From assembly GCF_003600645.1 (NCBI RefSeq), contig NZ_CP032482.1, forward strand, positions 1,984,001-2,048,000: a stretch of 64,000 nt of DNA, read 5' to 3'. Shown here in pieces: positions 2,138 to 3,789 of the stretch (positions are counted from its first letter, which is position 1; each line of letters opens with the position of its first letter). The notes beneath the pieces are model-generated. The model did no database searches. It was not told the DNA's origin and saw nothing but the letters and a program-made list of their open reading frames with translations. This stretch comes from Yersinia rochesterensis. Its GTDB lineage: Bacteria > Pseudomonadota > Gammaproteobacteria > Enterobacterales > Enterobacteriaceae. A program made the position numbers and the translations under genes.

Positions 2138-2413
2138 ATGAAACGTAGAACCGCATCAAGGCTTGGTAATGTGCTGATGGGGCTGGGATTGGTGACCATG
2201 GTCGTTGGGGTAGGTTACTCAATTTTGGCTGAAGTGACTCAGTTTGGCCTACCACAATTCTTTGCCCATGGTGCAGTAATGAGCATTTTTGTTGGTGCAT
2301 TGTTATGGTTGGTTGGCGCTCGTATTGGCGGGCGTGAAGAAGTTGCAGACCGCTATTGGTGGGTTAAGCACTTTGATAAACGTTGCACTCGTAATAACCA
2401 ACGCCACTCATAA
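2138..2413 (+). CDS. ychH: YchH family inner-membrane protein
   Basis: This is a 91-residue stress-related membrane protein of the YchH family, whose molecular role is unknown. The start MKRRTASRLGNVLMGLGL is chosen because GGAGG lies just upstream of the ATG at 2138; a longer frame opens at 2102 without such a site. There are two membrane segments (about residues 9-30 and 46-66), and the family-typical C-terminal block YWWVKHFDKR follows. It is divergent from pth. A very small ORF with a strong ribosome-binding site follows 82 nt downstream on the same strand, possibly on the same transcript. Confidence 0.88.
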   Translation: MKRRTASRLGNVLMGLGLVTMVVGVGYSILAEVTQFGLPQFFAHGAVMSIFVGALLWLVGARIGGREEVADRYWWVKHFDKRCTRNNQRHS

Positions 2414-2495
2414 AATCTGAGTGTTGACCGTGGTGTATGACAAATCATAGCCTGTTACTACAGCTTTAAATTGAGCTGATGTTCAGGAGGAGTGA

Positions 2496-2573
2496 ATGAC
2501 GACCCAAGAATCTGTTAATCAAGAATCTATAGACCAAGAACTTATAGACCAGGAACTTATAGACCTAAAGTAG
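2496..2573 (+). CDS. Possible 25-residue pentapeptide-repeat microprotein
   Basis: This short frame has an excellent ribosome-binding site (AGGAGG at 2485-2490, 5 nt before the ATG) and ends at TAG immediately before an intrinsic terminator. After MTT the protein consists of four tandem five-residue repeats, QESVN, QESID, QELID and QELID, encoded by four imperfect 15-nt repeats at 2505-2564, then LK. It is strongly acidic and probably helical or disordered, with no membrane segment. I recognise no family. It may be translated from the ychH transcript or from its own. The good initiation site plus the terminator favour a real product, but the repeat could also be a chance slippage product. Confidence 0.45.
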   Translation: MTTQESVNQESIDQELIDQELIDLK

Positions 2574-2575
2574 AA

Positions 2576-2610
2576 AACCCGTTGTTGCATCTGCATCAAC
2601 GGGTTTTTCT
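2576..2610 (+). terminator. Intrinsic terminator after the microprotein ORF
   Basis: The arms AACCCGTTG (2576-2584) and CAACGGGTT (2597-2605) run straight into a T-rich tract, with a further TGCA/TGCA pairing possible in the loop. It begins 3 nt after the 25-codon ORF and would end the ychH-side transcript. Confidence 0.85.

Positions 2611-2799: not shown

Positions 2800-3789
<990 letters not shown>

Follow-up and report, generated by a model that had tools for sequence, protein, structure and literature searches.

A mini-ORF abutting the terminator behind ychH in Yersinia, Serratia and near relatives

At most of the Yersinia, Serratia and closely related loci examined, ychH is followed by a mini-ORF, and the 25-codon open reading frame behind this gene in Yersinia rochesterensis is its Yersinia version. 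The mini-ORF retains its start and stop while its peptide changes, which suggests, on the strength of sequence comparison, that the act of translating the mini-ORF weighs more than the peptide produced. Our preferred reading, which we hold tentatively, is that this mini-ORF of the 3′ UTR is translated and has been selected because ribosomes load and terminate on it, not for the peptide; most likely it would modulate how long the 3′ end of the ychH mRNA survives. Translation in the cell is likely on the same comparative grounds; the effect on mRNA stability, the most likely outcome as we see it, is argued by analogy from precedents that all lie in 5′ leaders. The original prediction, of a compact unit expressing a repeat peptide, is partly supported, in that a translated unit is likely and a peptide gene unlikely.

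The micro-ORF and its surroundings

The features of the locus are collected in Table 1, with positions given in the window, the whole stretch of 64,000 nucleotides that was analysed. The spacing of 5 nt between AGGAGG and the ATG, the length of 25 codons and the 15-nt repeats were all confirmed in the sequence, TRF placing the repeat at 2520-2565 with 3.1 copies and a score of 64. The terminator does lie right behind the stop, and the frame, which had not been recognised as a known leader peptide, is not one, since the next gene is convergent. The repeats had also been described as in register with the frame and as differing by conservative substitutions. They are indeed in register; however, this does not speak for coding, because a 15-nt unit keeps the frame automatically, the better register is one of five 5-codon units (MTTQE SVNQE SIDQE LIDQE LIDLK), and the change from S to L is not conservative. 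The micro-ORF occurs as one copy in the genome, a second match being the other strand of the hairpin. It has no Pfam match, and Rfam at gathering scores reports only two tRNAs in the window and nothing at the micro-ORF locus.

Table 1. Features of the ychH locus, with positions in the window
Feature	Position	Strand	Basis or remark
ychH (DUF2583, 91 aa)	2138..2413	+	Pfam PF10762, E 2.7e-41; best E. coli matches annotated ychH, stress-induced protein
Hairpin CAGCU-UUAAAUUG-AGCUG in the ychH 3′ UTR, just before the Shine-Dalgarno sequence	2461..2478	+	modest covariation support
Shine-Dalgarno (SD) sequence AGGAGG	2485..2490	+	sequence; anti-SD energy −10.3 kcal/mol
Micro-ORF, 25 codons MTTQESVNQESIDQELIDQELIDLK plus TAG (2571-2573)	2496..2573	+	most relatives share the start, the frame and the stop at the terminator
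Four 15-nt repeats, QESVN QESID QELID QELID	2505..2564	+	probable lengthening of a five-codon ORF
Intrinsic terminator hairpin AAAACCCGTTG/CAACGGGTTTTT and U-tract, abutting the micro-ORF stop	2574..2608	+	fold −21.2 kcal/mol; folds on both strands, z −6.3 (+) and −5.0 (−)
Convergent ORF, presumably prs	2800..3765	−	ORF list; its transcript would meet this hairpin from the other side

The notion of a compact expression unit with a terminator of its own fared less well. A scan of the plus strand from the end of ychH to the micro-ORF (2413 to 2496) gave no promoter-like site; it also returned no terminator match, the hairpin loop being longer than the scan permits. The micro-ORF is therefore most likely placed in the ychH 3′ UTR and co-transcribed with ychH. 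The terminator belongs to the transcript that begins with ychH and may also serve, on the other strand, that of the convergent gene which we take to be prs (ribose-phosphate pyrophosphokinase). The names ychF-like and pth, used here for genes in the window, are likewise assumed from the E. coli gene order, annotated as ychF-pth-ychH-dauA in the one record used; no such ORF was found behind ychH in that record. The divergent pth-ychH region of the window holds a 16-17 nt tandem repeat (1901-1944, 2.7 copies), and a 152-codon ORF without a Pfam match (703-1161) lies between the end of the ychF-like gene and pth.

The anti-SD duplex of the micro-ORF start region is matched by none of the 52 mechanical ORFs of at least 150 aa in the window. 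A purpose-made finder called 18 terminator-like sites on the two strands of the window; an ATG ORF abuts three of them, and an SD is present at one, the micro-ORF.

Start, stop and place among relatives

The set of relatives comprised one genome per species. ychH is present in 25/25 genomes of the genus Yersinia, in 30/30 Serratia genomes and in 7/7 and 2/2 genomes of two allied genera, and a further genus supplied a single ychH locus (L111). Three Serratia genomes in which ychH is broken (L156-L158) were left out before counting, giving 62 loci (25 from Yersinia, 27 from Serratia, then 7, 2 and 1). At 56 of these 62 an ATG ORF ends directly at the terminator: 22/25 in Yersinia, 25/27 in Serratia, and 6/7, 2/2 and 1/1 in the others, the last being a 12-codon ORF in another frame (L111) that is present only in a loose sense. 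One Yersinia record (L012) stops 96 nt past ychH, so that 61 loci are testable. Among them, two have one extra base before the stop, which shifts the frame (L005, Y. thracica; L148, Serratia), and three lack the ORF, namely Y. similis (L025), where the element is lost, and L155 and L173. Since it is frameshifted, missing or in another frame at these loci, the mini-ORF is dispensable. In 55 of the 56 ORFs the stop ends 3 nt before the A/G that precedes the CCCG stem core. The exact terminator pattern preceded by TAG was found in 14 of 392 genomes, belonging to 4 of 154 genera, and all 14 genomic sites lie directly behind ychH.

With rows aligned on the ATG and five loci left out, which biases the result in favour of the ATG, parsimony on the ychH tree for 57 loci (62 less L012, L025, L155, L173 and L111) gives one change over the three sites of the ATG, one over the three of the stop and 56 over the 12 sites of the inner codons. 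Expressed per site, the changes are 9.9 and 6.6 in the upstream stretches −20..−13 and −12..−5, 0.33 in the ATG, 4.7 in the inner codons, 0.33 in the stop and 0.83 in the terminator. The Poisson P for the ATG vs the inner rate is 1.2e-5 for all 57 loci, 2.6e-4 for the 34 non-Yersinia loci and 0.09 for the 23 of Yersinia, and permutation over the 18 ORF sites gives P 0.027 for the ATG alone and 1.25e-4 for ATG plus stop. Conservation of the stop could come in part from the tail of the other-strand terminator. The inner changes are spread almost evenly over the three codon positions (21/17/18 for positions 1, 2 and 3), and so give no sign of peptide constraint. For Yersinia alone, where the count takes the final unit at 19 loci and the first four codons, the start codon among them, at 22, the corresponding figures are 12/12/20, a weak trend.

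Outside Yersinia, every abutting ORF but that of L111 has exactly five codons, the peptides being MFDYP, MFDYE, MLDYE, MSDYK, MSDYE, MSHIP, MLHNK, MFHDK, MNALT and MTALK. Five-codon forms, MTAQE or MTTQE, also occur in three Yersinia genomes, two of which correspond to Y. nurmii and Y. ruckeri. Across the 22 Yersinia loci the ORF consists of one to six units of five codons (5-30 codons), with length differing between species; the longer ORFs have two to six units, the first one MTAQE-like, and 40 of the 71 Yersinia units end in QE. The window ORF, with five units, has as its two nearest loci on the ychH tree one with three units (L004) and the frameshifted L005. In 54 of the 56 ORFs the length is a multiple of five codons (15 nt), the exceptions having 24 and 12 codons. 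The former, at L023, is the site of the single ATG change on the tree: the old ATG has become ATA and the next codon, in the same frame, is ATG where relatives have ACG. Measured from the old start, this ORF was tallied with five units. The distance from ychH to the ATG is spread 8/8/6 over residues modulo 3 in the 22 Yersinia loci. It appears that a five-codon frame was lengthened in Yersinia by in-register 15-nt repeats, with start and stop unchanged.

Breakage of the frame, or loss of the ribosome-binding site, elsewhere in Yersinia would speak against the coding gene first proposed. For the most part both are kept: ATG, frame and abutting stop in the 22 of 25 loci noted above, and, among 23 aligned loci, anti-SD energies at or below −8 in 22, the exception being L024 at −5.1. 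The loss in Y. similis and the frameshift in Y. thracica go the other way. Outside Yersinia one of 34 loci reaches −8 and the median is −3.9; over all 57 loci the median of −4.0 is no better than that of shuffled letters (−4.3). Because the SD is weak outside Yersinia, the case there stands on start, stop and place and not on the SD.

Two sets of control terminators were considered. At 41 ychH loci with a terminator in other genera, among which some genomes are present twice, an ORF abuts in three and the best anti-SD energy is −2.4. At 204 other terminators, drawn from 74 loci with Yersinia and Serratia included, an ATG ORF abuts in 20; none of these 20 has an energy of −8 or lower and five have −5 or lower, four of which are one Lonsdalea site. 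In Lonsdalea (L095-L097 at ∼4390 and L100 at ∼3982), MHTGMGKER with its stop abuts a terminator and has a fair SD, at −7.4 to −7.5. Upstream of ychH, several genera have a different terminator (AAAAATCCACGC hairpin) that directly follows a two-codon ATG AAA stop with a weak SD (L033 ∼123, L035 ∼71, L051 ∼811, L083 ∼823 and L093 ∼743).

A possible role at the mRNA end, and other readings

In the mechanism that we tentatively favour, ribosomes would bind the SD behind ychH, read a short frame, of five codons at its simplest, and come off at the stop codon adjoining the terminator hairpin. The selected trait would be that ribosomes start and stop at this site, the peptide being a by-product. The ribosome would most likely set the lifetime of the mRNA end by shielding AU-rich, nuclease-sensitive RNA next to the SD, a mode of action proposed for the mini-ORFs of axe-txe and EHEC LEE4, and/or every ribosome that terminates would open the hairpin's 5′ arm; as the stop abuts the hairpin, a terminating ribosome would presumably cover this arm too. 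As background on the host gene, the ychH mRNA of E. coli is reported to be among five that lose stability in stationary phase when RNase R is absent (PMC6264599), and ribosome density on ychH is reported to drop in E. coli without LepA (PMC4245954). A Y. enterocolitica transcriptome paper (PMC6478967) mentions neither ychH nor prs in the portion of its main text that was covered.

The most serious competitor, possible although we doubt it, is a regulatory RNA derived from the 3′ UTR, in which AGGAGG and AUG form a pairing or CsrA-binding region and the ORF is incidental. Such an RNA would be served by the strong terminator with its U-tail, and the hairpin before the SD shows some covariation in Yersinia: over 23 loci 93% of cells are paired and two-sided changes occur in three of five pairs, with 17/500 and 19/500 shuffles equalling these values, which amounts to modest support. 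GGA motifs, noted by eye in Serratia hairpin loops, are also consistent with it. It is harder to see why the ATG and the stop should then stay while the surroundings of the ATG diverge between genera, why the lost ATG at L023 should be accompanied by a new in-frame ATG, or why indels in the ORF nearly always keep the frame whereas those in the spacer do not; in addition, the locus is without an Rfam match.

As to other structure near the start, RNAalifold predicts a closing helix that takes in part of the SD, although this is register-dependent and not robust, and sequestering of the SD by the upstream CCUG is only a possibility. The local fold at the SD is no better than shuffles (z −0.95). 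In Serratia, for example at L136:1414-1487 on the minus strand, a GGCA/UGCC hairpin precedes the mini-ORF with AAAGGAGA in its loop, a possible CsrA-type site.

A short functional peptide, with the QE-x-I-D repeats of the Yersinia product acting and repeat number tuning the effect, is unlikely. Amino-acid sequence is not conserved across genera: the peptides of Serratia and its allies are unrelated and five codons long, and the even spread of inner changes over codon positions agrees with this. Yersinia itself has five-codon forms (MTAQE, MTTQE) and spans 5-30 codons between species, with no Pfam match. What the peptide has in its favour is the weak trend within Yersinia, where third-position changes are somewhat commoner and many units end in QE. 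Slightly less probable again is chance, an ancestral ATG and a terminator-linked TAG persisting by drift. Neither ATG conservation relative to the inner rate, in all loci and in those outside Yersinia, nor the control terminators, where no abutting ORF has a strong SD (204 others and 41 ychH loci), would be expected from drift, even though the element is lost or broken at several loci, its SD is weak outside Yersinia, and abutting ORFs with any SD, at 20 of 204 other terminators, are not rare.

It is very unlikely that ribosomes translating the mini-ORF disrupt the terminator, in the manner of an attenuator, and let RNA polymerase continue into the prs antisense strand. prs is convergent, and a ribosome at the stop would, judging from footprint size, cover the 5′ hairpin arm, but the five-codon forms would need translation to start within the brief exit of RNA polymerase from the U-tract, and there is no sensing codon, as the inner codons vary. 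Least credible of all is a minigene-type peptidyl-tRNA drop-off linking ychH expression to demand for the product of the neighbouring pth, for, although the ORF has five codons outside Yersinia and pth is divergent from ychH in the same order as in E. coli, most Yersinia ORFs have 15-30 codons, a length at which drop-off is not expected, and no cis route leads from the mini-ORF site to pth. According to PMC8708949, minigenes become less toxic as the ORF lengthens, and those ending in UAG are less toxic than those ending in UAA.

Beyond ychH, there might be a class of conserved, peptide-independent terminal mini-ORFs, of about five codons and placed exactly at the mRNA terminator, whose terminating ribosomes open or guard the 3′ hairpin; we regard so general a claim as improbable at present. 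If it were true, RNA 3′-end stability would be tied to ribosome supply. Small-ORF surveys keyed on conserved peptides would miss the ychH mini-ORF, in which selection seems to preserve start, stop and place while the peptide drifts. The natural series of one to six five-codon units offers a probe of the ribosome's role at the bacterial mRNA 3′ end, a region commonly regarded as untranslated.

Comparison with known short ORFs

No such ORF behind ychH was found in print in the open-licence literature, covered mainly through search listings. SgrS/SgrT and Spot 42 are dual-function sRNAs with a small ORF, their own terminator and a conserved peptide. The likeness lies in a small ORF on a short RNA with a terminator; they differ in that their peptide is conserved, unlike that of the ychH mini-ORF, for which the scan gave no promoter of its own. 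Leader peptides and uORFs, such as mdtU as described in excerpts of PMC7815308, share with it a short ORF near a transcription stop, but here there is no same-strand gene downstream and no conserved inner codon.

Closer parallels are the protective mini-ORFs described in excerpts of PMC8708949. These are very short ORFs with an SD, as is the ychH mini-ORF (5-30 codons, with an SD that is strong mainly in Yersinia), and their peptide sequence is unimportant, which for the ychH mini-ORF is what conservation indicates. They stand upstream of a regulated gene, whereas this one is behind ychH and faces a convergent gene. In the EHEC LEE4 (esp) mRNA, SD binding at a six-codon mini-ORF guards against RNase E and translation is not needed (Lodato et al. 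2012, as recounted in PMC8708949). LEE4 resembles the present case in that its ORF is only a few codons long, follows a strong SD and lies in a part of the mRNA that is otherwise non-coding, and in that the peptide is dispensable. From what is described there, however, SD binding is enough in LEE4, while the ychH mini-ORF keeps its start and stop, sits right at the terminator and is shared by several genera. The two-codon minigene mg2 of axe-txe acts in cis, needs both start and stop, and has been proposed to protect its mRNA (same excerpts). It too is a cis-acting mini-ORF in which start and stop matter, although, as described, it has two codons, lies in a 5′ leader and is tied to a downstream gene. 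Because start and stop are the conserved parts behind ychH, the mini-ORF is closer to the axe-txe minigene than to LEE4. What is new relative to the known mini-ORFs is its position, at the 3′ end of the mRNA instead of in a 5′ leader.
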